Assembly: GCA_030374765.1 (NCBI GenBank)
Contig: JARGXX010000012.1
Span: forward strand, 310,001 to 374,000
Reading direction: 5' to 3'
DNA length: 64,000 bases
DNA from: Agarophyton chilense
Lineage: Eukaryota; Rhodophyta; Florideophyceae; Gracilariales; Gracilariaceae
Part shown: positions 46,209 through 64,000 of the stretch, piece by piece
Position numbering within the stretch: position 1 is the first letter of the stretch
Layout of the letters: every line of letters begins with the position of its first letter
The notes under the pieces: generated by a model
What the model was told of the DNA's origin: nothing
The model's input: only the letters and a program-made list of their open reading frames with translations
Databases searched by the model: none
Translations under genes and position numbers: made by a program

Positions 46209-46213
46209 TTGTG

Positions 46214-46459
46214 CGCTATAGATTGACAGATTAGTACAAACAACCGGTCCCAAAATGGACCTCAAAATAGAAATTGAACATTTAGTACCATCCATATCAA
46301 TCGCAATAGAATCGCAGCCTGACCTGGCAGACCTCACGTGCCTTGCATTCTATATTATTCTCCACCGCCCTCCCCTGTCACGTGCCCTGTGTGCGCCATA
46401 CTCTCTCTCCGTCTACGCCCCCTACCAACTTCTTTCCCACCACCTCTCCTCCACCCACC
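46214..46459 (+). promoter_or_regulatory. Leader/promoter region of the transposase gene
   Basis: AT-rich at first, then strongly C/T-rich up to the start codon. Before the retroelement inserted, this was joined directly to the segment ending at 25086. No terminal inverted repeat could be recognised. Confidence 0.4.
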
Positions 46460-49400
46460 ATGCCTTCCTGCTGCTTCAACGGTTGCTCCTTCTTCGCCCG
46501 AGAAATCCCCGCCCTCCAGCGGCACCAGAGAAGGTGCCCTCATCGCCTCTCCGCCAACAAGCGCTTCCTCTCCCCTGGCGGAAATGAACCCAACTTCCCC
46601 CCCCGCACAAAACGCCACAAGTCCACCTCACAACTCCCCCCTCATCCTCCTCCCTCACATCGCCCTTCCGACAACGTTCCTCTCGCACACCATGACTCCT
46701 ACCTCCAAGACCAGCTCTCTCTCTCCCTCCACACCCAGGACGCCATCCACGTCGCCGCTGCCCCTCTCGGTTCCCCCTCCTCTCTCGCTCTCTCCCCCCT
46801 CCTTCCTTCCACTCCCCCCCTCGACAACCCCCACCTGGAGAAAATGGTCTTCTACATCTCCTCCATCGCCTCCAATCTTGGACAACGAAAGGCTGACGAA
46901 CTCATCACTCTCCTTAATGATTCCCACTTCTCCGAATCAACATTCCGGAACTCAGTCTCCTCCGCAAAGCAATGCCTCGAGCTCCAGGCAGACCTCTTCC
47001 ACCAGAGAATCAGGTCCATTGGTTTCGCCCCCTCCACCATCTTCGATCCCCACAAACGCTTCTCCGCAACCCTCTTCCAGAAAGACGCAATCCATGTCCT
47101 CAAACAACAGCTCGCCCTCGCACACTTCAAGAACACCTTTTTCCACCCCACCTCCCAAACATCCGCCTCCGGCTCGCCCGCCTTCGCACACCCCATGGCA
47201 GCCACCCTCGGCTCAAAAGTCGTCCCCGCACTCAAGACCGCCATCATGCAGTCCACAAAAGATAACATCGTCTGGCATCTCCCTCACTCCACCGGTATCG
47301 ACTCCTTCATCGGCCTCGTCCAAATCTACTCCGACAAGTCCTCTACCTCTCTCAAATATTCTTCCATCACCTCCTACCCCCTCCACATCACCCTTCTCAA
47401 CTTCTCCGACTCCTTTCGCCGCAAATGCATCTCCGAAAATCTCACACTCCTCGGCTATCTTCCCACCTCCTTCACCCCAATCACTCCTTCTCCAGATGCA
47501 GATATCATCACTCATTCCTCCCCCATCCCCCGCCAAACAAAAATGGAACTCATACAGCAGACCATCTCCTCCCTCCTTCAACCTCTCTTCTCTTCCGCCC
47601 TCCCCGGTTTCCCCTTCCGCAACGCAGACGGCGTTCTTCGTCAATGCCACCCCATCATCGCCAGCTACTGCGCAGACATTCCCGAGGCAAAGGATATTCT
47701 CGCCATCTCCCACGACACCCGCCCCCAGCACTCCTGCCACAGATGCTCTGTCCCTCGCTCACAACTCCACCAACACTCTCACGCCCATCCCCCTCGATCT
47801 CTTCCCCTCACCCTTGCAGCCCGCAACAACCACTTCTCCCTCGTCAAGGACTCCGAAGCAGCTCTCCTCGCCCGCAAGCCAAGAGTCTCGCGCAACTTCA
47901 AGGAACAAGCTCTCCAAGCACTCCACTCCCTCTCCCTCGCAAAATACCCCTCCCTCTTCGAGTCTTACCCCCTTTTCAACATCACCCCCCTCCTCACCCC
48001 ATACAACATCTTCCCCTTCGAACCCCTCCACAACTTCCACCTCGGCGTTTCCAAACTCACCAAGCTCGCCGCCATCGAACGTCTCAGATCAGAACACCTC
48101 TTCACCACCATCAGCTCCACAAACTCCAGCCGTTCCTTCCACTCCGTCCGCACCTCCATCCTCAAGCACTCCAACTTCATCCTCACCGCCATCGAAAATC
48201 ATTCCCCAGCTACCGGCCTCCACATCGACTTCTCTACTTCCGAAAGCGGGCAGTCCCTCAACGGCTTCTTCACAACTGACGGCGTCCGCGGAATGCTAGA
48301 AGCAAAAGACTACCGCGCCCTCAACATGGTCTTCCCCTTCATCGGCGCCTTCTTCGACCGCTGCTGTGACGAAGCCAATTCCGCTCCCATCACAACCGTC
48401 TTCTCCAAGTACACAGACCTTCTCCTCACCTCCATGTGCTACAACTCCGTCCCCGAATGGACCACTTCTCGTCTTGCCAAACTCGCCTCCCAAATCCATT
48501 CCTTCAAACACAGAGCTGTCGATGTTCTCGGTCCATACCATACCTCCAACCTTGGCACCCTCAAATTCCACCTCCTCGATCACATCGTAGACGACATTCG
48601 ACGCTTTGGGGGTCTCCACTTCAACGATGCAGGCATCTTCGAACAAGCCCATACCCTCTTCAAAGCACATTACTCCCGAACCACCAAGCGCAGACCCACC
48701 GCGCACAACGAAACCATCCGTGCCATCGAACGCTCCGATGCCGTCAACAATTGGATTTCTCTCTCCGCTGATCCTTCCGTCACCTCATCCTCCCATGCCC
48801 CTCCTCCTCCCTTCCAAGCCCGCAAACCAGGTTTCGTCCGTGATGGCAAGCACACCTCTTTTTCCGATCTCATCACCGCTCACAAATTCCTTCGAGCAAA
48901 CCCCCACTCAACAGTCTCTTCTCTTCAGGACCTCTTCTCCCCAGACACTATCGCCATCATCTCACAGATTGGAACCCTCGCACTCCCCTCCTTCGTCACA
49001 CTCACACTCGAAACACTAGCTCTCAACCAGGACTCCCCCACTCTCCGCCAAACCCGTCTCACATTCGTCAATTCCGCATACGTCGTCGGCGGCTTCACCC
49101 CAACCCTAGACGACTACATCGCCGATCGAAACGAGCTCGCCGTCAAAGATCCCCCTCTCCCACTCATTCAACGTATCTTCGCTGCTCTCTCCTTCGGTCC
49201 CTCTAAAACCCCAAAGTTCTCCCACATCCTCGTTGCCGGTTCCAGCTTCTCCAACCCCACTCCCACCGCCTGGGTCTGCAAGCTCAACTCTCTTCTTCGC
49301 TTCACCACCCCTTCTTCCCCTTCCACTCATAACGAGTTCGCCTTCGTTCAGTTCCTCGAACTCGTTCCACCCCAGGATCAAGTCGATGTCTCTCTCAATT

Positions 49401-49723
49401 GCATCTGCCTCCGATGGGCAACAGAAGACGAACAAATCCACACCGCCCACCCCCTTCCTATCTCAAACACTTCCAACTCCGACAACGTCTCCCCCTGGTT
49501 CGGCCTCGTACCATCCTCTTCCATTCTCGGCCCCGTTCATGTACTTCGCCAAAACTACCCCGCACCCCCCTTCACCCCTGGATTGCACTGGCGCTTCCAT
49601 CGATTTTACCTCAACAGATTCTACCGAGACCCAACTGCCAAGCCCTTCTTCTCCAACACCACCACTGGTGGCACAACACCACCACTGGGTGGCACCCATA
49701 ATAATACCTCCCAAGGCACATGA
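46460..49723 (+). CDS. Plavaka-like transposase (CACTA superfamily)
   Basis: The protein has 1087 residues from the ATG at 46460 (MPSCCFNGCSFF); the frame is open a little further upstream without support. Residues about 4-27 form a Cys/His finger of the type that opens these transposases. The catalytic core shows IYSDKSSTSLKYSS (first acidic residue near 292) followed by YPLHITLLNFSDSFRRK and LLGYLP. This closely follows the YSDK...YPVYxTIGN...RR...LLGYLP pattern of Plavaka transposases. Later come GVLRQCHPIIASYCADIPEA, a CHRC zinc pair, FEPLHNFHLGVSKL and the KFHLLDHIVDDIRRFGG region. Coding is intact, and codon use is extremely C-rich. It is apparently the mobility gene of the locus; the target-site preference is unknown. 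Confidence 0.83.
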   Translation: MPSCCFNGCSFFAREIPALQRHQRRCPHRLSANKRFLSPGGNEPNFPPRTKRHKSTSQLPPHPPPSHRPSDNVPLAHHDSYLQDQLSLSLHTQDAIHVAAAPLGSPSSLALSPLLPSTPPLDNPHLEKMVFYISSIASNLGQRKADELITLLNDSHFSESTFRNSVSSAKQCLELQADLFHQRIRSIGFAPSTIFDPHKRFSATLFQKDAIHVLKQQLALAHFKNTFFHPTSQTSASGSPAFAHPMAATLGSKVVPALKTAIMQSTKDNIVWHLPHSTGIDSFIGLVQIYSDKSSTSLKYSSITSYPLHITLLNFSDSFRRKCISENLTLLGYLPTSFTPITPSPDADIITHSSPIPRQTKMELIQQTISSLLQPLFSSALPGFPFRNADGVLRQCHPIIASYCADIPEAKDILAISHDTRPQHSCHRCSVPRSQLHQHSHAHPPRSLPLTLAARNNHFSLVKDSEAALLARKPRVSRNFKEQALQALHSLSLAKYPSLFESYPLFNITPLLTPYNIFPFEPLHNFHLGVSKLTKLAAIERLRSEHLFTTISSTNSSRSFHSVRTSILKHSNFILTAIENHSPATGLHIDFSTSESGQSLNGFFTTDGVRGMLEAKDYRALNMVFPFIGAFFDRCCDEANSAPITTVFSKYTDLLLTSMCYNSVPEWTTSRLAKLASQIHSFKHRAVDVLGPYHTSNLGTLKFHLLDHIVDDIRRFGGLHFNDAGIFEQAHTLFKAHYSRTTKRRPTAHNETIRAIERSDAVNNWISLSADPSVTSSSHAPPPPFQARKPGFVRDGKHTSFSDLITAHKFLRANPHSTVSSLQDLFSPDTIAIISQIGTLALPSFVTLTLETLALNQDSPTLRQTRLTFVNSAYVVGGFTPTLDDYIADRNELAVKDPPLPLIQRIFAALSFGPSKTPKFSHILVAGSSFSNPTPTAWVCKLNSLLRFTTPSSPSTHNEFAFVQFLELVPPQDQVDVSLNCICLRWATEDEQIHTAHPLPISNTSNSDNVSPWFGLVPSSSILGPVHVLRQNYPAPPFTPGLHWRFHRFYLNRFYRDPTAKPFFSNTTTGGTTPPLGGTHNNTSQGT

Positions 49724-49810
49724 TCCACTAAAATAGTCACCGCTGTTTTTCTTCCATAGCCGACCCCCATCTTGCTCCACCTCCTTACCCCCTTATCCCC
49801 CCGTACCTTA

Positions 49811-52465
49811 TCACTCTCCCACTCCTTGCCTACACCCCAACGCTAAGCGCTTGAACCGTGGTTCTTCTGGTCCACATGACCCTATATAGCAATCTAACAC
49901 CGCTCCAAGTCTTCTCGTGAGATTCTCCATGAAAAACTCCTCCCTCATCGCCAGATAGATTTTCTCTCTCGACGGTATCCATAGCCCAACCGTCGCGATT
50001 CTCTCCTTATTCCCACTCACTTCTCTACGATTCCCTCCACAGAATCCATCATTCTCAAACTCCTCAGCATACTCATCCTTCACCATGTTCCAGGCAACCC
50101 TCAATATGTCCTCAACAGCCAGTGGCAGAAACCTCTCAAACAGCGTCGAGAACAAAAGTTGCCTTTGGCCTCCCCGCCCAACGTCTCTATCCATCGTGGT
50201 CACCACACATCCAATCCATGCATCAAGTCGCACAAGATGCATCACCGTCCCATCCACATACTGCCTTTCTCCATTTCTGTGACTCTCTACCGCATAGCCC
50301 ATAAACTCCTCCAACACTTTCAACGACACCTGATTTCGAAAATACATATCTGCCTCACCAAAGTCCTCCAAGTTCTCAGACACCTTCGATCCAGAATAAG
50401 TAATATCTTCAATCGCACTCGTTCTCCACGCACACAGTTTACCTCTCCCATCCTCCCTCGACCCCATCAACTTCTCCTGCGCCTCCTCAATCTGCTTCTC
50501 CAACTCCGCCCAAAGCTCCGTCCCTTCAGTCACCTTAGCTCGTTTCGCGATCAAATCATATCCAAGCATGCAAAACAGCTTATCACGCGCTGCTCGCTTC
50601 CGCACCCCAACCACATCGCTCAATTTCTGCTTCGTCCTCTGTCTCAAGCACCTATCCGCACTTACATTTTCCACGCACTCCTCTCTCCTCCCCGCTTCCC
50701 TTATCGATTCCCATTTCTCTCCCATTAACTCAGTCTCTACCACGTGCTTCAACAACAAATGGCTCCCGCCCTCTGTCGACGGCGTATACGGTCTCATCTC
50801 ATATGCAACCTCAATTGGACATCTCGGAACCATTTCCTTCTCTACCACCACAAACATACTTTCCTTCCTACTCTCCCCAACCGCCTCACTTCTATTCTTC
50901 TAGCTTCGACCCACATTCTCGGTATCGAAGCAAAGTTCCGATGCCTCCAGTTTTGCATAATGAAGAATCCTATCATGCATACGACGTGCAAATCCATAAA
51001 AGCATTCCTGCACTCCAATGACATGCTTTCGTCGCCGCGTCACGCCTCCCTCCCCCCTCCCTTCCCCAGCGATTCTACCTTTCAACGCCTCCCTCAAACT
51101 CTCAATCAGCACATTCTGCTGCTTCATTTCCTCCCTCGCCCGATCCAGCTCCGTTTGGGTCATTTTCAAACTCACCATCACACTGTAGCTGTCTTCCTTC
51201 ATACTTCCCATTTGTCCCTTCACCACATTCATCTTCTCAATTAGCATCGACCGCGGCAACAAACCTATGTCATCATCATTTGCTTCATCTTCCACTATAC
51301 GGACGGCGTTCTCCACGACATTTAAATTCGCATTCTCCCCGTTATCATTATTCCTTGTGAATACAATGTTTCTCCTTACTCGCATACCTTCCGGCGTCCT
51401 TCGCCTTGAGTTCACCTCAAACCCTTCAACTCCCAAACCCACCTCTCTCCTCGGTGGCAAACGCTCTACATCTTCTCTCTGATGAGAAAAAACAGCTGCT
51501 CTTCCATCGCCTTCCTCCCCTGAACCACGTGTTCTCCCTCCAGCAAACCCCCTTCTCCCCCCCTCACTCACATGCACTTCTCTGCTTTCCGTTCCGTCTA
51601 TCGCTCTTCTTCCTGTAACTCGAACACTACCCATTCTTTCCCTTGCACGCTCTCTCCTTTCTTCCACGTAATCTAAGTTCGCCCCCTCCCATCTTTCCGC
51701 CTGTTCCCCCGCGGTAACTCCAACACTCTCTCCTTCTGTTCTCTCTCGAACGACTCTTGCGCCCGCGATTAGACCACTACTGGGTCCACCTATTCTACCC
51801 TCCCCACCACGGCTACTGTCTATTCTCCCTTTCTGTATCTCATCATCACCGTCCTCTTCCCTCATACCCGTAGACGATGCCCCTGCTTCTTCAACGCCTC
51901 TGAGGCGGGATCCACGTTCTCCGATCATTCTCTATCCCTCCTTACACCCCTTCGTCCTCTCATTCGGAATCTCTTCACCTCCTTCAGGCGCAGAGCATAG
52001 ATTTACCGGCTCCACATCAGCTGAAGACGTGAGTACAGCACTTAGAGTCCGCTCGGATGCATCCCCTCTCCTTGTCCTCCCTGGAGCTCTGCTCGCCCTC
52101 CCCCGCAATCCACTTCTAGGTACACGCGTGCGGTTGCTTCGCACGCCATCCCGTTTTCCATCGCCGCTCCGCACCATCTCTCCGGTAGGCGACGTGATTT
52201 GCTCCGTACGCGACGTGATTTGCTCCGCACTCTCCTCCGTCACCGTCTCCTTTGCGCGAACAGCCTTTCCTTTGCCCCCACTCGCCTCTCCTTCCCCACC
52301 ATCTTGCCTTGATCTACCTCTCAGGCGCACGCCTCCCTTCTCTCCACTCGCGCCCTGGAGCCTACGCCCCTTGTCCCTTCGGCCCTCCGCATCCCCTCCA
52401 TGCCGCCGTGATTTTGTACCGCGCCCGCTAGTGTTCTCGCTTCTCGATTTGCGCTTCGGAGCCAT
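49811..52465 (-). CDS. Uncharacterised basic/coiled-coil protein read through two TAG codons
   Basis: One frame of 885 codons starts MAPKRKSRSENTSGRGTKSR. It is interrupted only by TAG at 51932-51934 and 50900-50902, giving open segments of 177, 342 and 348+ codons. The first third is Arg/Gly/Glu/Ser-rich and disordered. The middle holds a coiled-coil stretch (EKMNVVKGQMGSM ... TELDRAREEMKQQNVLIESL). The C-terminal third is globular-looking (ERFLPLAVEDILRVAWNM and after) and ends in TGA. No family is recognised. The segments may be separate proteins, a decayed gene, or one product made by amber readthrough. The tail faces the transposase tail, 87 bases away. Confidence 0.55.
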
Positions 52466-52789
52466 GGTTGAAGAGAGAGAGAGCGATCATGGTATGGTCT
52501 TCCACGCGTTGCAATGCGATGGATGGGAGAGAAGCTTCGAAACATTCTGCTTCCAAAAATATACCTCCACCCTTTTCGTGTTCTCAGAAAACCCCCAAAC
52601 TTTTCAGATATTTTAAATATGCGCTCGAACGCACCAGATATTGGGAAAGTATTCTCCTTCGGTGTACATGACTTTCCTTTAGCATATGTACTACGTCACG
52701 CTTTGACGTTATATGTAGCGACAAACATAGTAAAAGCCCACAATATCTGGTACACTACGATGAAGTAAAGTAACAAAAGCGATGCACTT
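52466..52789. other. Spacer between two minus-strand cargo genes
   Basis: AT-richer than its neighbours. Should carry the promoter of the coiled-coil gene and the 3' end of the MTase-SET gene. Nothing else is recognised. Confidence 0.4.
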
Positions 52790-55700
52790 TTAATCGATTA
52801 CTACGACTGGCGTGTTATTTATACTCCAGATATACTGTGTCCCATAATCTGCGAACAGCTCCTCTCCTATTTCTATATCTCGAATTGCTTGCACAGAAAG
52901 CAATCTATAGTCTCTCAACTGAAATGGGGTCCGCCCCGTCCCCGGAGTTCTGATGACCCGAACATTTGCAGTTCGGCGTCTCATTAACCCGTCTTCAACC
53001 GCATTCCTGTCCCTATCCCCTTCCACATACTTGGGGTCGTTAATTGTTCCCCCCAAGCAAAATGGAGCAGGGACAATCCACACCGGAATAAGAGACACCC
53101 CACTAATTCTTCCTGGTAGCTTGTGAAACACTTCCCCTCGGACGCTTATCTCCATCGCGTACTGCCGAAAACGATCAGCAGTCGCTTTCAATAGCCCCCC
53201 TCCGTATGCCTTATGAACTTCCTTCCGCTTTGAAAGATTATGGTACACCAAAGTCCCGTAAAAGTAACAAACAGTCTCACCTTGTATCACCCGGCGTGTT
53301 GTGTACACACCAACTCCAGCATTCGGGTGCCTTATCGTCGACTTTGCAATCCGACAACCACATACTGTCGCCTCCACTGCCAGAATAGCATTCCAATCCA
53401 ACAGTGACATCTTCCCTTGAAAACTTCTTGGCCACTCATACAGCGCCTGCCGTCGCCCAATCTCCGGTATATTCTTATCCTGCCACATGGAGGAGAGAAA
53501 ATCCACGATATGGGGTGGAAACATCTGATGCTCGGGAAATCCGGTAGGTGTTTTCCAGGACTTCGAACGCTTTATGACGACGTCCGGAAACAAGCATGTC
53601 ACTCGAGTCACAGCGTTCCGAACATCTTGCGTTATATGAATGTCCGTCTCGTTGTTCCGCATGCATGACGCAAATTTCACTGTAGCGGCGTGCTTCGCAT
53701 GAGCAAAGCACTGCGGATCTGGCTCACACCCTAGAAACTGACGGTGCTTTTCCAGTTCCATGCATGCCATGGCCGTTGAAAATGTTCCGGCGAAGAGGTC
53801 CACCACTATGTCTCCCGGCTGAGAAAACCTGCTGATGAGCTCCTTCAGCAAAGCGCGTGACTTCTGTTCCGCCCGCACTTTCTGATACGTAACTGCTCCT
53901 TTGGCATTCTTCCTTCTCCATAGAAGTGTTTCACCATTCGACATGGGAGGCACTTGGTCAATCACGCTATGGTAACCCGGATATCGCGATGGTACATAGC
54001 TGAAGTTCTCATAGTTCACCATGCCATGTTGTTCGGCGTAGGACAACCCGCTGCGAACTCCATGAATGGCGTACTCTGTTCCGGGAAACAGGGAGCACGA
54101 ACTACGTCCGGGATTACGCATCGGATTGCCTTGAGAGCGAATGAAGTGCAGCTGGACCTTGTCCACGACAAACGACCTGCTCTTCTGTCCATTCTCATCC
54201 TTTGCACCAATTCGACCCAACACTTCTTTCCATTCGTTCACCTGCTCAATCGCGCAGAATATAACGAAATGCCCTCCCGGACGCAGAAGTTTAGAGATGA
54301 GCTTCGCCGTCTTCACCATGTCTTGCCGGTTAAGAACGTCGTACCAGCTGTTTTTCCTGTTCTTCTTCGCACGTATATTATACGGCGGGTCCGTGAGAAC
54401 CAACTGCACTTTCCCTATCGGAGAGACCCCATTGCTGCGCAATGTCTCGTCAATCTCCACCAGGTTCTCGAAAGTACAATTGTACATTCGACAGTGCTTA
54501 TCCATCTCCGACTCGCACTTTTGGAGAGACATTATATCATCCAGAGAGGTAAGGTCGTGAGGCGGCAGAATATCCACCGACTCAGATTCGACCGACCTTG
54601 GTCCAGCTGTGGAAGAATGCTGACCAACACCAATGTTCTCTTCATCATTCCCGGTCCCACCCTCCACTCTCTCTCCACCCTCCACCGCCGGAGCCTCCGA
54701 ATCTTTCTCAGGGGGTACAACTTCTATCTCGTCTTCTTCCATAACCATAGTAGGTTCCGCCTTTGTCGCAGCCACCACTTCCACCTCCACACTCCCTCGC
54801 AGCTTTAGTGGCGATATGTATTCCGAGATGGTAGAGATAAGAGAGTTCGAGAAGCAGTCGAATCTCTCCGCAAACACTCTAGGCAAAGTGTATGTAAACG
54901 GTTTTAGAACGTCCCATCTTTCCGGAGCTGATATAGAGTAAAGCTGCTCATTCACCACCACTTTGTGCAGGTCAGCGAGAAACTCTTTGGCCAACATACG
55001 AAGTGGAGTGTCAACGTACTCCGGCAGGTTCCACGCCCATGGGACGACATCCTCCTCCAATAAAGTACGGTTTCTACCAGGAAGGAGTCGTTGGGCCATG
55101 TCCTTGTGAGAGAACCCATCCCTTCTGTTTCCGATTGCCTGGAACTGCATATCAGAATATCGTAGATGGATAAAGGGCAAAACCATGAATTCCACGCCAG
55201 GGAATCCCAAATACTGGGCGAAGCTGTCCCACGCGTTATTGACGAGCTGCACACCAAAGCCCACACGCTGAGCTACTGGTTTGTCATAAATCGCCACCTT
55301 CGAAAATGGCGTATCGTAGGTTCTGTCCCGCTTTCTTCGCTTACGGGAGACTCTTCTCTTCTCCATAGAGACCGACTGAATACAAATGAGGAACAGCAAC
55401 CTCTGGAACATTGTCGGGAAGTCGGTCGCGAATGGAGCCCGGCTTTTGCTCGCCTTCTTTCGGGTTGTATCCAGACCTTTGAAGAACTCTGTCAAAGTGA
55501 CATTCTTCGGGATGCCCTTGAACTCCACCGCCTCGTACGCGTTCCAAAAGTCCCTCACGCGCCTATCTGGGTCCCCATCCCTTATATCCAGCAACCTCGC
55601 CGAGAAATAATTCTGACAGTTCGAGCCCCTCATTCCTACAACTCGGAGCTCATCTTCTGTGTAATTGGTGTGGTCGGGACCTAGGAGAGTATAAAAAAAC

Positions 55701-55921
55701 TTCGCGGTCTCCGGTAGGATGTGGCGATTGGCAATTGCGAAATCGATGAATGCAGTGTGCCCCACTTTTCGCGGCTCATCTTCCTCCCGCCTCGTTGATG
55801 CGTAACGATCACGCAAATCCAGACACGCCCTGATAACTTCATCCCCCGTACCAAACAGTTTACCCATTTCGAAGGTGTCTGCCGCAGGCGATGAAGAAAT
55901 TCTCGTGGGTTCTGGAGCCAT
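52790..55921 (-). CDS. DNA N6-adenine/N4-cytosine-type methyltransferase fused to a SET domain
   Basis: The 1043-residue frame is intact. Residues 1-400 have no recognised domain and are followed by an acidic linker. The methyltransferase has DPPYN near residue 511 (motif IV) and DLFAGTFSTAMACMELEKHR near 705 (motif I-like, FAGT in place of FxGxG). The order DPPY before FAGT is that of beta-class amino-methyltransferases such as CcrM. A SET domain follows: HPNAGVGVYTTRRVIQGETV near 862, GGTINDPKY in the place of the NHS motif, and IEIGEELFADYGTQY near 1015. The enzyme could methylate DNA and a histone or other protein lysine in the nucleus; neither activity is shown. It diverges from the ParB-like gene across the compound palindrome. 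Confidence 0.82.
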   Translation of the reverse strand: MAPEPTRISSSPAADTFEMGKLFGTGDEVIRACLDLRDRYASTRREEDEPRKVGHTAFIDFAIANRHILPETAKFFYTLLGPDHTNYTEDELRVVGMRGSNCQNYFSARLLDIRDGDPDRRVRDFWNAYEAVEFKGIPKNVTLTEFFKGLDTTRKKASKSRAPFATDFPTMFQRLLFLICIQSVSMEKRRVSRKRRKRDRTYDTPFSKVAIYDKPVAQRVGFGVQLVNNAWDSFAQYLGFPGVEFMVLPFIHLRYSDMQFQAIGNRRDGFSHKDMAQRLLPGRNRTLLEEDVVPWAWNLPEYVDTPLRMLAKEFLADLHKVVVNEQLYSISAPERWDVLKPFTYTLPRVFAERFDCFSNSLISTISEYISPLKLRGSVEVEVVAATKAEPTMVMEEDEIEVVPPEKDSEAPAVEGGERVEGGTGNDEENIGVGQHSSTAGPRSVESESVDILPPHDLTSLDDIMSLQKCESEMDKHCRMYNCTFENLVEIDETLRSNGVSPIGKVQLVLTDPPYNIRAKKNRKNSWYDVLNRQDMVKTAKLISKLLRPGGHFVIFCAIEQVNEWKEVLGRIGAKDENGQKSRSFVVDKVQLHFIRSQGNPMRNPGRSSCSLFPGTEYAIHGVRSGLSYAEQHGMVNYENFSYVPSRYPGYHSVIDQVPPMSNGETLLWRRKNAKGAVTYQKVRAEQKSRALLKELISRFSQPGDIVVDLFAGTFSTAMACMELEKHRQFLGCEPDPQCFAHAKHAATVKFASCMRNNETDIHITQDVRNAVTRVTCLFPDVVIKRSKSWKTPTGFPEHQMFPPHIVDFLSSMWQDKNIPEIGRRQALYEWPRSFQGKMSLLDWNAILAVEATVCGCRIAKSTIRHPNAGVGVYTTRRVIQGETVCYFYGTLVYHNLSKRKEVHKAYGGGLLKATADRFRQYAMEISVRGEVFHKLPGRISGVSLIPVWIVPAPFCLGGTINDPKYVEGDRDRNAVEDGLMRRRTANVRVIRTPGTGRTPFQLRDYRLLSVQAIRDIEIGEELFADYGTQYIWSINNTPVVVID

Positions 55922-55984
55922 TTATGTACATGTTCAAACAACCTCACGGGCGGTCGTCACGAGAGCCTGAGTGAAAGAGAGCAG

Positions 55985-56012
55985 CGGGTGCGGGTGGGTG
56001 CGGGTGGGTACG
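55985..56012 (+). repeat. GGGTGC-type G-rich run
   Basis: Alternating CGGGTG and GGGTG units give five G-triplets in 28 bases on the + strand, enough for a G-quadruplex. It lies in the leader side of the MTase-SET gene. Confidence 0.7.
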
Positions 56013-56092
56013 GAAAGATTGTGAGTACGGTTGAGGAGCGCGCACGGAAGAACGGTTGTTGCGGAACGACTTCGCAGCTATCCTGGTTGCAT

Positions 56093-56784
56093 TCTGTCGG
56101 CCGTCAGAGGTGCGCTCCGACTTCATCGGGGGTCCCGATGAAGTCCCCGCGCACCTCTGTCGACCGTCATAAAACATATAGTTTTGTAATTTTTAGGACG
56201 CCCAGGTGTACACGGTGCATTCTGTCGGCCGACAGAGGTGCGCGGGGACTTCATCGGGACCCCCGATGAGGTTGGAGCGCACCTCTGTTGGCCGACAGTC
56301 GACCAACATCTCAGAAACGCATCATGCGTGATGTTATGGCGTATTTGTCGGCCGCCAGGGGGGTGCTGCGACTTCGTCGATCCACTGATGAAGTCGCAGC
56401 ACACCCCTGGCGGCCCATAAATGGCCCGAATGGTGTCCCTACAACATTTTGGTGAATTGTCTGCCGACAAAGGTGTCCTGCGACTTCATCGGTGGACCGA
56501 TGAAGTCGCAGGGCACCCCTGTCGGCCGACAAATACGCCATAACATCACGCATGATGCGTTTCTGAGATGTTGGTCGACTGTTGGCCGACAGAGGTGCGC
56601 TCTGACTTCATCGGGGGTCCCGATGAAGTCCCGGCGCACCTCTGTCGGCCGACAGAGTGCACCGTGTACACCTGAGCGTTCCAAAAATTACAAAATTATA
56701 TGTATTATGTCGGCCGAAAGAGGTGCGCGGGGACTTATCGGGACCCCCGATGAAGTCGGAGCGCACCTCTGTCGGCCGTCAGGA
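56093..56784. repeat. Compound palindrome: six palindromic units in one 692-bp inverted repeat
   Basis: Six units of 75-78 bp lie at 56093-56169, 56221-56298, 56345-56420, 56457-56532, 56579-56656 and 56708-56784. Each is itself a palindrome, built as GTCGGCCGACAGAGGTGCGC...ACTTCATCGG / CCGATGAAGT...GCGCACCTCTGTCGGC. Units 3 and 4 carry a variant core (GGTGCTGCGACTTC). The whole array is also an inverted repeat about the middle of spacer 3 (56421-56456). Spacer 2 (56299-56344) is the exact reverse complement of spacer 4 (56533-56578), and spacers 1 and 5 are near-exact complements. The layout suits an origin, a partition or repressor array, fused element ends, or a source of double-stranded RNA. 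Confidence 0.95.
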
Positions 56785-56874
56785 TATTTTTAATTTTTTA
56801 ATTTTATTTTCTTGTATCGCCTACCAAGCCAATAGGCGTGTTTGCGATGGAAAGAGACAAGGAGTTTCTTGAGT

Positions 56875-56926
56875 TTGAAACTAAGCGGACGTAGCTCAGG
56901 TTGAAACTAAGCGGACGTAGTTCAGG
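56875..56926 (+). repeat. 26-bp direct repeat, two copies
   Basis: TTGAAACTAAGCGGACGTAG plus six more bases, repeated head to tail with one mismatch, about 150 bases before the ParB-like start codon. Confidence 0.85.
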
Positions 56927-57071
56927 CTGATTGCAACGAACTGCTCTCGGGAGTGTTCCGGATAGTCGCCACCAAAGGAGCTCGATCTAATACGTCTTAG
57001 TCTGTATACCATAAAAGGCTCAAAGCGCTCTGCGACCATTTGCAACCTCGACCGACTACGATCCGATTCAA

Positions 57072-58541
57072 ATGATGACTCGAGGCAAAGCGAAAGCGAG
57101 GGGTACTCCGCGGGGTACTCCACGCGCCACTCCGCGAAAAGCTACATCGGGAAACAATCTGGCTGGTGGGGATAGGGTGGCGTTGTTCCTGGCGGATGGG
57201 ACAGGGAAGAAGAAGGGTACTATGGTTGGCACTGCGGAGTTGAGAGGTGTTGGGGGCAGTGGAGCGGCCGGGAAGGCGCTTTGCAGAGCGATGCATGGCC
57301 ATTCGTTGCGCGAGTCTGCGAAGCCGGGAGAGGACTTGGTGGCCATCTGGAGGACTGAAATTAAGGAGGGGATCAACTCCAAGTATCCGTACTCCTTCAA
57401 GGGAGCAGAGGAGCCGCCGGAGTTGCTGAAGGATATGGTGTCGGCAGGTATATACGCATGGGATACCTCGATGATGACACGCGTCTCCTCTGTGCTAACT
57501 CCAGGGCCTCCTCGGCCGGAGACTCCCAAAAGCGCGACCCCCTCGAAGGAGTCTGCTACGCCTTTGAGGGGGAAGAGGGCACAGCCAACAACAGTGCCGC
57601 CGGCCATGAAGCAACCCGTCAAGCCGAAAAAGAGGGTGACGATAGTGGATGATTCTGATGAAGATGTTGTGGAGGTGGGGTCAGCGGTGAATGTACGCGG
57701 GGATTCGCACAACGGTCCCGAGTTGGAGTTGTTCGATGACGGCGATGTCGTTCCTTCGCAGGAAGTGGATAGGACTCTCGTGGAAAAGAAGATCTCTGTT
57801 TCAGACTATGACCAGTGCCGCTTGATTGTGGACATAGATGACATACAAATCCCCGAGAAGACTGTCAGAAGTGTGAATGCGGAACACAAGGCGGCGACGA
57901 TGGCAAAGTGCAAAACGTTTGGCTGGCTTGCGTCGGCAGGGTCGATTGCTGTTGCCATCGTCGGCGGAATGGAATTAGATTTCAGTGAAATTGTTCACAA
58001 TGGGCGGGTAGTGGTGCCTGTCATACTCATTGACGGTCATCACCGCGTCTTGGTTCTGCGAGATCTGAAGAATGATCCCTCTGAAGGGAGAAAGTGGTTG
58101 GAAATTGTGCGGTCTCTTGATGTCATTCTTTGGAGACGCAAGGACCGGAAGCCTTTATCGCTGAACGAAGTGCTCGGTCTTGGTAATGTACTCAATGAAA
58201 TGAGTTCAAATGTGTTGAAGATGAGTTTCGCCGACAAGGTTCATTCGACAGTGTCCTTCATTTGCAACTTGATTGACGATAAGAGAACCAAGTTGGCTGA
58301 CCTTACTCCGACACGGATAGCTGGGGCACTGAAGAGGAGCAAAGCTATAGGAATCTACAGCTTGCGCCACTTGAATCGCTATGCGACTCTTGGGTTGAAA
58401 TTCGTCAGGAGCGAAGGTCTCCTGGAGTTCTTTGAGAACGTATGCAAGGAGGGTCCAGTGCTAACGCTTGCGCATGTGTCGAGTGACTTGTTGTTAGGAC
58501 TCGAAGACGAAATATTCCGTTTCGCAATCCGTTGTTTGTAG
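57072..58541 (+). CDS. ParB-like reading frame (first segment of a longer frame)
   Basis: 489 codons start MMTRGKAKARGTPRGTPRAT, a basic AT-hook-like N-terminus. A disordered, acidic middle follows. At about residues 265-330 comes a segment with DIDDIQIPEKTVR and VPVILIDGHHRVLVLRDL, which resembles the ParB/sulfiredoxin-fold core, where a positions-and-IDGHHR motif is typical of ParB N-terminal domains. The rest (to about 480) is helical and could be the DNA-binding part. The frame stops at TAG (58539-58541) but continues in phase into the next segment after two codons and on to 60758. Its nearness to the palindromic array suggests that it binds there. The ParB assignment is tentative. Confidence 0.6.
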   Translation: MMTRGKAKARGTPRGTPRATPRKATSGNNLAGGDRVALFLADGTGKKKGTMVGTAELRGVGGSGAAGKALCRAMHGHSLRESAKPGEDLVAIWRTEIKEGINSKYPYSFKGAEEPPELLKDMVSAGIYAWDTSMMTRVSSVLTPGPPRPETPKSATPSKESATPLRGKRAQPTTVPPAMKQPVKPKKRVTIVDDSDEDVVEVGSAVNVRGDSHNGPELELFDDGDVVPSQEVDRTLVEKKISVSDYDQCRLIVDIDDIQIPEKTVRSVNAEHKAATMAKCKTFGWLASAGSIAVAIVGGMELDFSEIVHNGRVVVPVILIDGHHRVLVLRDLKNDPSEGRKWLEIVRSLDVILWRRKDRKPLSLNEVLGLGNVLNEMSSNVLKMSFADKVHSTVSFICNLIDDKRTKLADLTPTRIAGALKRSKAIGIYSLRHLNRYATLGLKFVRSEGLLEFFENVCKEGPVLTLAHVSSDLLLGLEDEIFRFAIRCL

Positions 58542-58547
58542 CTACAT

Positions 58548-59765
58548 GTGAAGGTGAGGATGGGTTCTACGGGGAATATGGGACGTTTCCAGGAGACGCG
58601 AAAGCAGTTCTTCCAATGCGCCATAGGAATGTTCCAACTATGCGAAAGGGCGGGAAAGGAGAAGGGTCTGACGGCGGGGAAGGATCTAGACAGCACAATT
58701 GTGATGGGAAAGAACGAGGTGTCTTTAAGGGAGTACCTTTGCATGCAAACGGCGAAGATGGAGCTCAGTGGTCTGAAGCGGTTGTGGCCGGGGTTGCTGT
58801 CGAAGAGGATGAAAATCGCACAAAGGCGGATTGAAGGCGGTCTGAAAGTGAGTCTGGCGTCCCCAAGTGCGGAGAAGGATGTGGTGGAGGTGCCACCTTC
58901 TGTGAATGTTCCTTCGTCTAGTGCTGGGGAGTCTGTACCCCACCAGAAAACCGTGGTTCCCAGACGCATCACACGAACTGGAAAAGGTACTGAGCGCGGG
59001 CTGGATGCTGCGGGTGAGAGGGTGATGGAACCTAGACAGAGAAAGGGGAAGAGAAAGGCTGTGGTCATTAGTGATGATGAACGCGAGTATGAACAGCCTT
59101 TAAAGCGGAAGAGGAAGACGAGAAAGACGGTGGGCACATCTGCGGCTCAAATAACGGCTGACGTGGTGGATGTGTTCAAGAACATGAGCAGGAAAGAGCT
59201 GAAGCGCTTCTTGAAGGAACATGTACTCAATATTTTCTCATCGAGTGAGGATGAACTGGATGATGACGGGGGGCAGGGTGCATTTGTAGGGGACGAAGAG
59301 GAGGAAGGTGTGCAAATGTGTGGCTTCGAAGACAATAATCCGGAGGGTGTTCCGAAGGGGCTGAAGAGGGCGGGACTGTATGAGGGGGGGTCGGGTATGT
59401 CGTTGGTGTACTTGGTGAATGCACTTCCGAGCGAGTGGCCGGCGGGTGAAAATGGAGTGAAGCATCAGCACCTCTGGATGCAGATGATTTACCTACGCAA
59501 CAAGCACAGGGCGGAGTGCTTGAGGGTAGAAGACTTGAAAAGTGTGCACCATGCGGTTTATTGGCGTGCTGCTCATAACAGGCACAAGGAACTGGGTTCC
59601 ACGAAAGAACCGGTTCTTGGGGTGATTCTACCGACGAAGGACCCCCTTGTGAATGAAGAGCAGGCGATATGGATGGCAGCAATGGAGAGGGATGACTTGG
59701 CCCGCGAGTACTTCGCGACTAAGAGAAGTGAGCTGATGGAGAAAGAATTTTGTGTGCTGGAATAG
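58548..59765 (+). CDS. Middle segment, basic/acidic linker protein in phase with ParB-like frame
   Basis: 405 codons, in phase with the frames before and after, bounded by TAG at 58539-58541 and 59763-59765. It has a helical start (QETRKQFFQCAIGMFQLCER), a basic stretch with PRQRKGKRKAVVISDDEREY, an acidic patch (SSSEDELDDDGGQGAF), and a globular end (HQHLWMQMIYLRNKHRAECL). No family is recognised. Its true nature depends on whether the TAG codons are read: it may be the centre of a protein of about 1228 residues, or a separate or decayed piece. Confidence 0.5.
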   Translation: MKVRMGSTGNMGRFQETRKQFFQCAIGMFQLCERAGKEKGLTAGKDLDSTIVMGKNEVSLREYLCMQTAKMELSGLKRLWPGLLSKRMKIAQRRIEGGLKVSLASPSAEKDVVEVPPSVNVPSSSAGESVPHQKTVVPRRITRTGKGTERGLDAAGERVMEPRQRKGKRKAVVISDDEREYEQPLKRKRKTRKTVGTSAAQITADVVDVFKNMSRKELKRFLKEHVLNIFSSSEDELDDDGGQGAFVGDEEEEGVQMCGFEDNNPEGVPKGLKRAGLYEGGSGMSLVYLVNALPSEWPAGENGVKHQHLWMQMIYLRNKHRAECLRVEDLKSVHHAVYWRAAHNRHKELGSTKEPVLGVILPTKDPLVNEEQAIWMAAMERDDLAREYFATKRSELMEKEFCVLE

Positions 59766-59783
59766 TTTGCCCCGGACGAGGGG

Positions 59784-60758
59784 ATGGCGGATGAGGCGAA
59801 GAAGAGGGTAGTAAACTTCGATGGGGATGTGACTGGGACTTTGCTAGAGTTCTTCCAGACGGATTTCATGAACCAGCCGGACTTGACGATTGAAGGGAAT
59901 AGAAAGAAATGGGACCCTATAATCAACGCTGGTGAGGAGAGAGACGCTGGAGATAGAATGAAGGGAGTTGGGCGGTACATTACGACGAAGGTGGGGATTG
60001 TGGATTCTGTGGAGGGGGACGAGAACAACTTTTTAATGGTGAGGAAAAGGGCATTGTTAGATGCGAGGTTTGGACAGATTGCGGCCGCTCTTCGGTTGTG
60101 CAACAACCGGTCGGGGAAGAAGAGGATGTATGCCCCTGAAACAGGGGGGCGAGTGCTGTGTACGGCGGAGGGCTGTCCAAGGCAGGTGTTACATACGGAC
60201 TTTCGAGGACTGACCGATGCCGAGAAGAACTTCGGAGAGGTTCCAGGGTTCTTCATGATGGCGTCGGGAGCGAGTTCGTTTATGCTTTGGGTTTGTGAGA
60301 GGTCACATAACATATACGTGCCCGACGACAGGAGCTTGAAGCGGCTGTCTCGGACGATGGTAGTGAGGAAGTTCAGGATTCCGCCGTACTCCATTTTTAT
60401 TGGAAGAGGAGATGTGTTTCATGCTGGAGCTGGATACGAGGATGCATTGGTTAAGGAAGTCTGCATGAGGTATCACATGTACTTGGTACCGGATGGGTAC
60501 AAGCTACCGGACGCAGTGCATAGGCAACCAGCATTTTGGCCTAAGTTCGAAGAGGATGATTCCAACAAGGGTGATGATGAAGACGTCCAGGTAGATGAGG
60601 ATGAGGAGTTGGATGAAGATTATAAAATGGAAGTTGTTGAAAGTGGGGAAGAGGAGTATGAAGAAGAGGATGATGAACCTGGGATGGGTCTCAACTGGGC
60701 TAACACAGATGAAGACTATGAAGACGGCGGTATGATAATGGATGACGACGACGACTAG
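59784..60758 (+). CDS. 2-oxoglutarate/Fe(II)-dioxygenase-like domain (last segment of the long frame)
   Basis: The 324 codons follow the second TAG by six codons, in phase. The fold signature is CPRQVLHTDFRG (HxD near residue 136), FFMMASGASSFMLWV, IPPYSIFIGRGDVFHAGAGY (distal His near 212) and RYHMYLVPDG (Arg near 229). This HxD...H...R arrangement with GDVFHAGAxY is typical of double-stranded beta-helix dioxygenases found in algae and giant viruses. It could oxidise methylated bases or proteins, which would oppose the neighbouring methyltransferase, but no substrate is shown. An acidic tail (DDDD) ends at TAG 60756-60758; the frame then stays open for six codons to TGA at 60777. Confidence 0.65.
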   Translation: MADEAKKRVVNFDGDVTGTLLEFFQTDFMNQPDLTIEGNRKKWDPIINAGEERDAGDRMKGVGRYITTKVGIVDSVEGDENNFLMVRKRALLDARFGQIAAALRLCNNRSGKKRMYAPETGGRVLCTAEGCPRQVLHTDFRGLTDAEKNFGEVPGFFMMASGASSFMLWVCERSHNIYVPDDRSLKRLSRTMVVRKFRIPPYSIFIGRGDVFHAGAGYEDALVKEVCMRYHMYLVPDGYKLPDAVHRQPAFWPKFEEDDSNKGDDEDVQVDEDEELDEDYKMEVVESGEEEYEEEDDEPGMGLNWANTDEDYEDGGMIMDDDDD

Positions 60759-60839
60759 ATAGTATCTGTTACCTATTGAACAAGAAAGAGTACAATTTGA
60801 GGTAATATGTGGAGTAGTCCCCTTTTCTTGTAATAGTGA

Positions 60840-61667
60840 TCAGTCGTCTTTCAGTAGAAACTCCTGAACAACTGGATTGAAACGCGTGAGAGCAGCACTT
60901 GCTTTCACTTTCTCATAGTGAATGAAAACTGTCGAAGATATCAAGATTACGACATCCACTGTGTTACCAAGCAGTATAGGAACACCAGGGCCCTCAATGC
61001 GAGAGGTGGAGAAGGTGGTTGAAGAGAGTGCAGCGAATGTGCATGCCGACAGCCTCATACCGAGTAGTCGGAAGGTTACAGCTGGACTGGATATGAATAA
61101 AGCCTGTTGAAAAGAGTGGGAGAGGGCGCCAAGCACGAGGTTCATAAAAGAGGTTCTTCGTGGTTCCGGGGTCATTGTGAACTTTGTGTTAAGATAGGAC
61201 TCTGGAAAGAAGGATATAGAAACAAGCTGGAAAAGATATTCCAAAGCGCCAACTGCGGCCCCTCCTGTGGAGAAGGCGATACAATTTGTCTTCACGTCTG
61301 ATGAAAGGGTACCGCTGACTGGAATGAAGCGGTGAACGAGGAAAAGTATGGCGTTGAGGGGGATAAGTAGAGTAAGGAGTAGAGCCCCGAATTCCAGAAA
61401 TGGTCGTTTCTTCCAGGTATATCGCTGGTTTGGATTGAACGGCGTAGTTTGTAGAGACCCGTATAACGCGTTTATACATTGTATGCCTCCTTCGATTATG
61501 AGAATGTGTGGCAGGCTTTGGATAGGACACCTCAATAGCGTTATGAGAATGAACCGAAGGAGAGAGTTGAATCTGAATGGAAGCGTATATTGCAGAGCTG
61601 GGTCTATAACTCCGAAGAGTGTAGTTAGTGTGATTGTGAACGTTAAGGTCGATGTGAAGAGTGTTTG
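60840..61667 (-). CDS. Multipass membrane protein, probable 3' exon
   Basis: The frame is open for 275 codons from 61667 but has no ATG before residue about 160, so its start must lie upstream. Hydrophobic segments include TLTFTITLTTLFGV, FNSLLRFILITLL, FGALLLTLLIPLNAILFLV and a C-terminal VVILISSTVFI, suggesting four or more membrane spans. Directly upstream the sequence reads as a plausible 3' splice site (pyrimidines, CTAAG, then TTAG at 61668-61671), so I infer an exon border there and that 61681-62307 supplies the earlier exon. An alternative is ATG at 61677-61679 followed by a TAG two codons later. Family not recognised; host gene rather than cargo is assumed. Confidence 0.5.
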   Translation of the reverse strand, partial: QTLFTSTLTFTITLTTLFGVIDPALQYTLPFRFNSLLRFILITLLRCPIQSLPHILIIEGGIQCINALYGSLQTTPFNPNQRYTWKKRPFLEFGALLLTLLIPLNAILFLVHRFIPVSGTLSSDVKTNCIAFSTGGAAVGALEYLFQLVSISFFPESYLNTKFTMTPEPRRTSFMNLVLGALSHSFQQALFISSPAVTFRLLGMRLSACTFAALSSTTFSTSRIEGPGVPILLGNTVDVVILISSTVFIHYEKVKASAALTRFNPVVQEFLLKDD

Positions 61668-61680
61668 CTAACTGAACATC

Positions 61681-62307
61681 TTAGAAAAGGCGTTCCGGTT
61701 TGCTAGTCTTCCTTGTACACTGCACATAGGTAACGATATGATACCACTCTTTGAACAGTGGTTTCAGAGTATCTTGCTGCTGTAAGGAGTTGCGAGTGGG
61801 GAGCCTCCTGGTGGTCTTACAAATGTCACGAATCTCGTCCATTAACTCGTTGGTGATATGATTCTGGAACCCTCTGACTTCGGCCACATTCTGGGTGGTT
61901 GGAAGTTTGATTTGAAGGACTTCGTCGATGGTGATAACCGTTCGTTGTGGAAGAATATCCACAGCTGCTGAGCATTGGACAGAAGAACCAGGGGGTAGGG
62001 AAAGACGTGCTTCGTAGCGCTGCATGCTTAAGAAGGAGAGAAGAGTGTTGTGTAGAAAGGTATTTGTGAGGGACTGGATACAGTATGTTGAGCGCAATGA
62101 AGTAGGGTGGTCATCGGTGGATATATATATGTAGTGATCAAAGTAGTTGTTAGGTTGTTGCCGTATCTCTGTCGCGGAGTATGAATAATTGTTATGAATG
62201 AAAACCTTTGATAGGCTGTAGGAGCGGTTATTGGGTACAGACTTAATTGCAAAGTTGGAAGATTTATGAAGAGTGGTTGTAGTGATGATTTGTGATGTAC
62301 GAAGCAA
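61681..62307 (-). CDS. Probable 5' exon of the membrane protein gene
   Basis: A 208-codon frame whose first ATG is at about residue 94 (MQRYEARLSLPPGSS). The well-formed part (GSSVQCSAAVDILPQRTVIT ... NHITNELMDEIRDIC) looks like a compact soluble domain. Near the end, ACCTATGTGCAG offers a GT donor in phase with the frame at 61667, which would join this domain to the membrane part through an intron of under 60 bases. The donor does not match GTAAGT well, so the model is tentative. Confidence 0.4.
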   Translation of the reverse strand: MLRTSQIITTTTLHKSSNFAIKSVPNNRSYSLSKVFIHNNYSYSATEIRQQPNNYFDHYIYISTDDHPTSLRSTYCIQSLTNTFLHNTLLSFLSMQRYEARLSLPPGSSVQCSAAVDILPQRTVITIDEVLQIKLPTTQNVAEVRGFQNHITNELMDEIRDICKTTRRLPTRNSLQQQDTLKPLFKEWYHIVTYVQCTRKTSKPERLF

Positions 62308-62440
62308 TTATTAATATCGCTTCATATATTCTGACGTGGTGTCGTGCGGATAGCAGTCTTTATCGAGGCAGCGAAGGAGATGGACATATGCTTTAGAAAG
62401 GAGGACTTGTTTTTATTGGAAGGGGTATATGAATGAAGTA

Positions 62441-63265
62441 CTACCCATTGAGGAGGACATTCAAGAAGTTCGTATGGAAAGGGGCGGGGTCACGGTTTCT
62501 AATGGATTTTTGGGCGTTAGAAACGTTGTAGAAGTAGACGTTCCGGAACTCAAAGTCTGAGAACGAGGTGGGGAACTGTGTAAGTGTTTTTCCGTGGGCC
62601 AGAAGTTTTTGGAGTGTTTCTGTTGTATTGTAGGCGATTCCTGTTTCGGATGTGACGATGGCGACGAGCTCTTTCATTATGGTTGAAACGACTGTGCGGT
62701 GTTGTACTGCAACTTCGTATATTGTGATAAAGCCATAAGAGGAGCCGACGAGATTAAAAGCTGATATCCATACGAGTTTTTCGTAGTAAGCTTTAGAGAA
62801 GGAGGGCTGGTCGACGACATGACAAGTGAGGCCTGCGGTATTGAGGCGATTGGCGAGTGCGGGAGCCCATTTGCCGGTGGCAGTTGTGAGACCATGGGGA
62901 CTGAGGAGGGTGACACCGTCCTCGGGGGATGCGTTAAGGGAGGGGACGGCGAGGAAGAGAACGGCTTTGGTGCAGTTTTGGAGCCCATAGGTTGAAAGAA
63001 GAGGGAGAATGTTTCCGTTCTGAATGAAGACCAGATCCTCTCTGCGGGAGGAAGGGCAGAATTGAATGACGTCTTCTAGTGAATGATTTCTGCCGCAGAA
63101 GAAAATGGGGCCGTCGGGGATGTATTGGGCGGACATGAATTCTTGAGTTGAGAGAAAAGCATCTTGTGGAGTGCCGTTGTTGCGAAGCAAAGTGCCGATT
63201 CGGCCTCTGCCGACAATAACGGCTGGGTCGGAGGTGCAAGGGATGGCAGTGAGAGAGTCGGTCAT
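62441..63265 (-). CDS. Ketopantoate-reductase-like protein (ApbA/PanE fold)
   Basis: The 274-residue protein starts MTDSLTAIPCTSDP. The NAD(P)-binding site is VGRGRIGTLL (GxGxxG). The region EDLVFIQNG corresponds to the central ketopantoate-reductase strand and its QNG turn, and AYYEKLVWISAFN carries the conserved Lys and Asn near the catalytic site. Ketopantoate reductase makes pantoate for coenzyme A synthesis from 2-dehydropantoate with NADPH, in cytosol or organelle. The protein is a little short (family about 290-310) and the C-terminal domain is divergent, so the substrate may differ. Confidence 0.68.
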   Translation of the reverse strand: MTDSLTAIPCTSDPAVIVGRGRIGTLLRNNGTPQDAFLSTQEFMSAQYIPDGPIFFCGRNHSLEDVIQFCPSSRREDLVFIQNGNILPLLSTYGLQNCTKAVLFLAVPSLNASPEDGVTLLSPHGLTTATGKWAPALANRLNTAGLTCHVVDQPSFSKAYYEKLVWISAFNLVGSSYGFITIYEVAVQHRTVVSTIMKELVAIVTSETGIAYNTTETLQKLLAHGKTLTQFPTSFSDFEFRNVYFYNVSNAQKSIRNRDPAPFHTNFLNVLLNG

Positions 63266-64000
63266 GTTGATTGCGAAAGGTGTTTGGAGTGCGGTGTGGT
63301 TGGAATTGAAGAAGTGGTGGGGGTGGCGAGTGTGGAGATGTGATTAAATAGAGAAGGAGTATGGTTGTGGAGGAATGGGTGTTAGGGGTTTTTGGGAAGG
63401 AGGTTAGATTTATGATATTGAATGGTGTTTATTGTGTTAAAAGTGTAGGAGTGTGTGTTGTTATGGAAGTCATAACGGGAAAGAGGGCTTATGAGTAATC
63501 GGCGGTTTGTGTTACGAATGAGTGTGATTTATTATAAATGAGAAGGCTATGAAATTGGGAGTAGTGAGGGAGCGCTGAACATGATAGAAGGTGTAGGAAT
63601 ATGGATGGGAGTGTGTGAGTGAGCAGTGAGTGGGGTGAAGGGCATCCGGAGCGTAGATGCAGGGGTGTACGAGGGTACTGAAATTGGGCGAGCGCGCGCG
63701 AAAAGCGGGTCAAAAAAAGGAGATAAAAGGCCGAAGGTGGGCGAGAGGATTTTCGAGGGGTGGTGCTGTGTGGGAGGCTGCGGGTACTACTGGCCGCATT
63801 AAGGTGAGTGCGCTTGCGCTTGCGGTGGCTCTTGTCGATAGCTTTCGCGGGCGTTGGCGATGTCGAGCGGATCCCCATGGGGCTGGAGATGGGGAAGCTG
63901 TGGAGGGCGAATGAGGAACTGATGAGGCGTTTGAAGGTGTTGAAAGTGCACATGGAAGGAATGGGGGAGATTTGGGGTGCGCGAAAGGTGTTGAAGGAGG
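63266..64000. other. Promoter side of the reductase gene and G-rich flank
   Basis: The + strand is G/T-rich throughout. A 154-codon minus-strand frame (63489-63953) has no motif and is not called. A gene could start beyond the window edge. Confidence 0.4.

Follow-up and report, generated by a model that had tools for sequence, protein, structure and literature searches.

A nested palindrome array at the centre of a many-copy Plavaka-type transposon in the red alga Agarophyton chilense, and its possible role as a target of an element protein

What is a block of palindromes, arranged so that the whole is again a palindrome, doing between two divergent genes of a red alga? The window, a 64-kb stretch (64,000 nucleotides) of Agarophyton chilense DNA, holds such a block at 56093-56783, and the search for its relatives covered the 79.8 Mb, 135-contig genome to which the window belongs. 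As the first-pass annotation had described, six palindromic units, each of 76-77 bp and with five spacers between them, are set within a larger inverted repeat. In the largest one the two arms, of 296 nt and 88% complementary, span 56141-56436 and 56441-56736; its centre at 56438.5 is the middle of the 36-bp spacer at 56421-56456, and the 692-bp block shows 79% identity to its own reverse complement without gaps. When folded as single-stranded DNA, all six units lie 8.4-13.8 s.d. under their shuffles, none of the 200 shuffles made for each unit equalling it. Unit alignment separates two classes: class A carries a fixed 3-nt asymmetry, with TCC opposite CCC, and the class B consensus is symmetric. 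Unit 1 (56093-56169, plus orientation) is of class A and turns its TCC arm toward the methyltransferase gene on the left, and unit 2 (56222-56298, minus), also of class A, has the opposite orientation. Units 3 (56345-56420) and 4 (56457-56532), on either side of the central spacer that inverted-repeat detection places at the symmetry centre of the block, belong to class B, and they are followed by the class A units 5 (56579-56655, plus) and 6 (56707-56783, minus), the last with its TCC arm toward the ParB-like gene. A 26-bp tandem repeat of 2.2 copies (56875-56930) lies just to the right of the array.

The gene on the left (52790-55921, minus strand) encodes a DNA N6/N4 methyltransferase-SET protein of 1043 aa, hereafter MTase-SET, with a match to PF01555 (E = 3.4e-18) and a marginal one to SET (E = 7.3e-05; 23.6 bits, cut-off 22.4). 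Its PDB matches are DpnA and other DNA methyltransferases and its PHROG matches are methyltransferases, and no relatives appeared among the 7997 protein candidates scored. The gene recurs at 95-100% identity in at least 44 places of the genome (44 scored), many of them with stops. The gene on the right (57072-60758, plus strand) has at least 88 matches in the genome, fragments and a distant family included. In the copy on C117 its frame stays open for 1228 aa before a stop is reached, and the window copy is broken by in-frame stops into open reading frames at 57072-58541, 58548-59765 and 59784-60758. Among 7996 candidates scored it has two protein matches at E <= 0.001 (34% and 30%), and both belong to the red alga Gracilaria domingensis. 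Both domain labels that we use for this gene are motif readings only. We take the protein to be ParB-like from a D-G-x-H-R motif, of which D382, G383, H385 and R386 (L088 numbering) are invariant in four relatives, and we take its C-terminal part to be dioxygenase-like from an H-T-D ... H pattern with FIGRGDVFHAG, which is mostly conserved in two further proteins, one of them having R in place of the first H. Profile searches of Pfam, PHROGs and PDB gave no ParB match and no family match for the dioxygenase label either, and structure predictions made without an alignment for the ParB-like and C-terminal parts (pLDDT 32 and 37) were too poor to use. PE-type TET/JBP proteins have HxE rather than H-T-D, according to the available text of the source (PMC12730594).

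The array is the central intergenic region of a DNA transposon of the Plavaka type, which is present in many copies and measures ~18.8 kb in the C117 copy. From left to right the element comprises the transposase, three minus-strand ORFs, MTase-SET (minus), the array, the ParB-like gene (plus) and the right arm. The transposase ORF of the window copy (46343-49723, plus strand) matches the Plavaka transposase domain PF18759 with an E value of 1.5e-21 (77.4 bits, cut-off 26.3), and the three ORFs between it and MTase-SET had no convincing match in Pfam and the other profile searches. The ends are 23-bp terminal inverted repeats that differ from each other by one base, CGTCAGTGTTCTCGGAATGCTAG and, at the opposite end and reversed, CGTCTGTGTTCTCGGAATGCTAG; individual copies deviate slightly from these. 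The left terminus was located in the C117 copy and then in eight further copies, and the right terminus is common to the copies, the homology stopping there when 11 right ends are aligned together with 11 stretches from the left side. Eight of the nine copies with both sides read are flanked by identical 2-bp sequences (TA in five, TT in two, CA in one), the exception being the C71 copy at 2.25 Mb; the flanks also match in one of three derivatives.

The part of the window copy that lies inside the window extends from 46208 to 64000; it lacks the left ~263 bp, being joined at 46208 to other repeat DNA, and its right end lies 563 bp past the window at C12:374563. Position 46208 was ruled out as the left end of the element, since other copies continue for ~263 bp to the terminal repeat. 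The first-pass annotation had also considered that the array might represent fused element ends, and this had to be abandoned: the true ends lie ~10 kb to the left and ~8 kb to the right and carry an unrelated terminal repeat. Short motifs differ in the same way. The array lacks CTAGC/GCTAG, of which there are four in the left 403 bases and three in the right 566, and it has 13 of TGTCGG/CCGACA, which is found in neither of the two end stretches; each motif is found twice in 5.9 kb of the element middle. Other repeated DNA is present in the window at 25092-25976 and 45291-46175 (98.4% identity) and at 25976-27156 and 35722-36901 (99.5%), the repeat at 45291-46175 stopping 33 bp short of the point where the element is truncated on the left. 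The right flank (L051:563-2477, from C12:374563 on) is itself a repeat with 39 other places at 94-96% identity (40 scored of 561 candidates), so that the element is located either within another repeat or next to one.

By its transposase we file the element as Plavaka, and we place it in neither published subgroup. The published Plavaka termini, as given in the available text, are TGT..ACA for subgroup A and CATCA..TGATG for subgroup B (PMC12730594); the CGTCA..(A/T)GACG termini seen here are close to those of PlavakaB and match neither. The element resembles the Plavaka elements with modification enzymes described in the same text in its Plavaka transposase, its 2-bp target duplication and its DNA-modifying-like cargo, whereas the cargo-bearing families described there are fungal and carry TET/JBP genes (PMC12730594). 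That source names SET genes for HarbingerS and MuDR, and ParB is absent from its main text (PMC12730594). In the open-licence literature on Plavaka, on transposons with ParB, SET or DNA methyltransferase genes, on Gracilaria transposons and on red-algal palindromic arrays we found, within the accessible texts, no report of this element or array.

The link between array and gene pair, proposed from the window alone, holds across the genome. All 30 loci found by the ParB-like protein alone carry 1-8 units within 1.5 kb upstream, at least one of them a full unit in 29 of the 30. Furthermore, a divergent MTase-SET gene is present within 3 kb (gaps of 533-1801 bp) at 33 of the 48 ParB-like places with a query coverage of three quarters or more, a count that sets 48 of the 88 ParB-like matches against the 44 scored MTase-SET places. 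As many as 38 of the 40 scored array places (of 100 candidates) lie inside the element or its derivatives. By immediate surroundings, 24 of the 40 clusters adjoin one of the two genes, 11 were scored with an element end within 8 kb and five have neither; four of these five carry a deletion junction described below, at right-arm position 63877, and the fifth, at C16:541 kb, is one of the two arrays that were not placed in the element. The other is the array at C3:196 kb, one of the 11, the end at C3:203756 (minus) belonging to the array at C3:204 kb and pointing away. The same figures speak to the first-pass expectation that dispersed copies would reveal a MITE. Nested insertions of a short MITE would yield units that are palindromic and repeated, as these are, and with nearly all scored places in the element and the spacers recurring in fixed classes we consider such an origin scarcely credible.

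Our tentative preference is for a reading in which the array is a cis target, amplified in tandem, for a protein that the element encodes, most likely the adjacent ParB-like/dioxygenase-like one, and would serve in anti-silencing or autoregulation. The main rival, and a strong one, is that the array is a non-functional palindromic minisatellite, whose units arose once, are rearranged by hairpin-promoted slippage or recombination and are spread by transposition; this we regard as possible, and much of what follows bears on it.

Across the 40 array loci, which hold 1-14 units each when partial units are counted, there are 144 full units of class A and 58 of class B, and the spacers fall into three classes of ~36, ~44-48 and ~53 bases, with gaps of 97-227 bases where a partial or missing unit intervenes. 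The two orientations of the spacers are about balanced, 32 to 38 for the 53-base class and 25 to 26 for the 47-base class. In 32 of 35 loci the outermost full unit on the left, judged by eye, points its TCC-type arm outward, and in 30 of 35 the outermost one on the right does so, a count that leaves out four of the 63877 derivatives and one locus with no full unit. A fixed 3-nt asymmetry in class A, three classes of spacer and outer units that mostly face outward amount to an order that argues against the minisatellite. The exact reverse complementarity over 46 bases of the second and fourth spacers of the window array (56299-56344 and 56533-56578), from which the first-pass annotation had inferred selection, conversion or very recent origin, is real, but selection or conversion need not lie behind it: among the copies this spacer class departs from its consensus by only 1.2% on average (measured on the 21 of 51 spacers that have the modal length), so that an exact match is unsurprising. 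The remaining two classes are 4.9% and 4.1% off consensus (61 of 70 and 13 of 18 spacers, again of modal length).

Turnover of the array is rapid. The copies on C10, C117 and C70 are ~0.03% apart over a ~3 kb stretch of the ParB-like gene and have 7, 8 and 5 units respectively, partial units included. Unit number thus changes faster than point mutations accumulate, as the minisatellite would have it. The tree of 30 copies is star-like; one long branch in it, C2_1078, is false, the stretch concerned running out of the element. Compensatory changes in the paired arms were not in excess: in class A we counted 286 one-sided changes and one compensated change, with 4.7 expected by shuffling (107 distinct units), and in class B 267 one-sided and 21 compensated changes, with 31.8 expected (53 distinct units). 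The copies therefore give no sign of selection for pairing. Sites in paired columns are off consensus at 4.1% in class A and 8.1% in class B and are not less variable than the spacers (1.2-4.9%), which, together with the lack of covariation, also favours the minisatellite. The same result weighs on the idea that the array is a source of hairpin RNA or small RNA with effects on the element or its host. With DNA parameters every unit is able to fold into a long hairpin, as would be expected of such a source, yet the window gave no Rfam match at gathering score and compensatory changes show no excess, and we judge this role very unlikely.

Deletion derivatives give an indication of what the element can do without. 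At nine loci (L081, L082, L083, L084, L095, L107, L109, L111 and L114) the array runs straight into right-arm position 63877 and the ParB-like gene is gone. The five of these with enough sequence hold 4, 6, 7, 9 and 15 units, half units counted (15 in L082), and no MTase-SET was found on the other side, a statement that covers the whole of the C3 copy and 150-1700 bases at the rest. That C3 copy consists of the array, ~470 bp of other repeats, the left arm and the left terminal repeat, without either the MTase-SET or the ParB-like gene, and its right end is among the 40 right ends considered below. L015 has a junction of its own, 63968 to 56828, with six units. The most repeated gene-less derivative that we saw retains the array, which fits a cis target and counts against a non-functional minisatellite.

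The proposition that the array is kept in all derivatives was nevertheless rejected, since array-less derivatives exist. Ten of the 40 right ends were inspected, chosen because they lacked an array and, with the exception of C88, a ParB-like gene beside them, so that the sample leans toward array-less copies. Four of the ten (L089, L090, L091 and L093) have no unit in sequence spanning the array position; L092 and L098 also have none, but their stretches stop short of that position; a single unit is present, in full or for the greater part, in each of L094, L096 and L097, and L095 has four. The array-less junction of L093 is present at two C80 sites with different flanks, one of them with GT/GT and the other without a match, and those of L089 and L090 each occur once among the 40 places scored. 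With one array-less derivative at two sites in different surroundings, the array appears, from these sequences, to be dispensable for transposition. This favours the minisatellite and counts against a further reading, in which the array is a recognition site of the transposase needed in cis for transposition. Its retention in the repeated derivative at nine loci would agree with such a site; with the array ~10 kb and ~8 kb from ends whose motif differs, and with an array-less derivative at two sites, we hold it to be most improbable. The two C80 stretches (772160-779876 and 801626-809354) contain the same array-less derivative in opposite orientation and are 98% identical across the junction. 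Variation in the right arm was also seen: L089, L094 and L096 have other DNA between ~60956-60977 and 63876, and L090, L092, L097 and L098 are without about 61775-64000. These two recurrent variants mark subfamilies.

A target bound by the protein of the neighbouring gene might also be expected beside relatives of that gene, and the distant family, 36% identical over the ParB-like part, has palindromes of its own. On C32 (L088, C32:23500-31500) four palindromes of ~157 bp with a tandem period of 773 bp precede a frame of 1316 aa, the last of them 437 bp upstream of the paralogue's first Met. On C21 (L087, C21:643500-650200) three palindromes lie upstream of the paralogue, the repeat measuring ~773-776 bp in the two loci. 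Comparison of these palindromes with the window array gave only 11-base BLAST matches. Each C32 palindrome has at one of its outer ends an exact palindrome of 16 bases, and the window array also holds short exact palindromes; such short palindromes are no more numerous in C32 than in the best shuffle (four, against a maximum of four in 200 shuffles). Members of the distant family lie near many contig ends and, on C21, in a row of places spaced ~5.5 kb apart. That a distant paralogue, too, is preceded by a palindrome series, and an unrelated one, argues against the minisatellite and fits the prediction of a target array, although two families are too few to prove co-evolution.

Known systems offer partial parallels. 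In CACTA/En-Spm elements a binding motif is repeated in both orientations in subterminal positions near the ends. The array is alike in having a motif repeated in both orientations within a CMC-type element, and differs in being central, with its motif TGTCGG/CCGACA absent from the ends. In bacterial parS-ParB partition, palindromic sites act with a ParB protein; palindromes lie here too beside a gene with a ParB-like motif, but that gene has no ParB family match, and no ParA-like Pfam match was found among the element ORFs scanned.

The closest precedent for a cis target comes from the VANDAL transposons of Arabidopsis, whose VANC proteins, as described in the available text, are encoded by the elements themselves, bind motifs arranged in fast-changing tandem repeats and remove silencing (PMC5735166). 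Like VANDAL/VANC, the present case concerns noncoding tandem repeats of a DNA transposon, with considerable variation from one related copy to another (1-14 units, 40 loci). It differs from VANDAL in its long nested palindromes, its single central block and its placement in a Plavaka element, and binding by the candidate protein is proposed by analogy. In the mechanism that we favour, the ParB-like/dioxygenase-like protein of the adjacent gene would bind the units, whose palindromic form would suit a dimeric binder; binding would either keep element copies transcribable, in a VANC-like form of anti-silencing, or autoregulate the two flanking genes, and inverted and direct units recombining with one another would account for the changes in unit number. 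The linkage to the genes, the array-bearing derivatives, the grammar of units and spacers, the paralogue, the difference in motif between array and ends and the VANC precedent are what lead us to this tentative preference. Against it stand the lack of a compensatory excess, the array-less derivatives, the ParB and dioxygenase labels for which there is no family match, and the consideration that retention of at least one unit could also stem from recombination between units. If true, sequence-specific control of silencing by transposon-encoded proteins would reach beyond flowering plants to the red algae, where other proteins and a target made of palindromes would be involved. On a practical level, tens of similar copies with 1-14 units form a natural dose series within one genome.

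The element also has an extreme strand asymmetry, whose sign changes next to the array. GC skew, computed over 46208-64000 and L051:1-250, is about -0.5 across the outer left arm and reaches +0.64 on the right, switching beside the array; the minimum of the cumulative skew, or best two-part split, lies at 55870, 223 bp from the array. The skew increases with distance from the array and is almost absent (+0.08) in the last right-end piece (from 64208). At fourfold sites it amounts to -0.94 in the transposase (plus strand), +0.83 in the minus-strand ORF at 49811-50857 and -0.85 in that at 62441-63265, with a weaker value of -0.24 at 60843-61667 and a range of -0.10 to +0.20 in 16 other ORFs of the window. 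The asymmetry at these sites tracks the DNA strand of each arm, not the strand of the gene. Strand-biased C>G mutation, considered as a cause, was not seen among the copies, singletons per 1e5 in the ParB-like region being 367 for G>C and 364 for C>G (the spectrum drew on 30 ParB-like loci and on 13 from the MTase side, where changes were few).

Such a pattern raises the question of whether the array is a site of replication or single-strand processing, near which copying of the element starts or ends and leaves a mirror strand asymmetry. The skew switch 223 bp from the array and an asymmetry that follows the strand of each arm are in keeping with this. However, the asymmetry grows away from the array, unlike that of a plain bidirectional origin, and is nearly gone at the right end; present copies of the ParB-like region show no matching strand bias; the split also coincides with the start of two divergent genes; and no replication protein was identified, a skew switch not being sufficient alone. 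We consider a replication site unlikely. A broader reading joins the skew to the cis target that we favour. The array would be the central loading site for a ParB-like protein fused to a DNA-modifying dioxygenase, which would spread outward over both arms and, with the MTase-SET protein, rewrite in trans the epigenetic state of all array-bearing copies, gene-less derivatives included; the same outward-graded process, or the mode of copying, would leave the mirror skew. Target and protein would co-evolve, and related elements would therefore carry unrelated palindrome series. As a whole we regard this combination as doubtful. The mirror asymmetry between the arms of the element is a strange feature in itself. 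Skew as such is not unique to the element, since ~1 kb of the flank of the C117 copy is also strongly skewed (-0.39 to -0.67).
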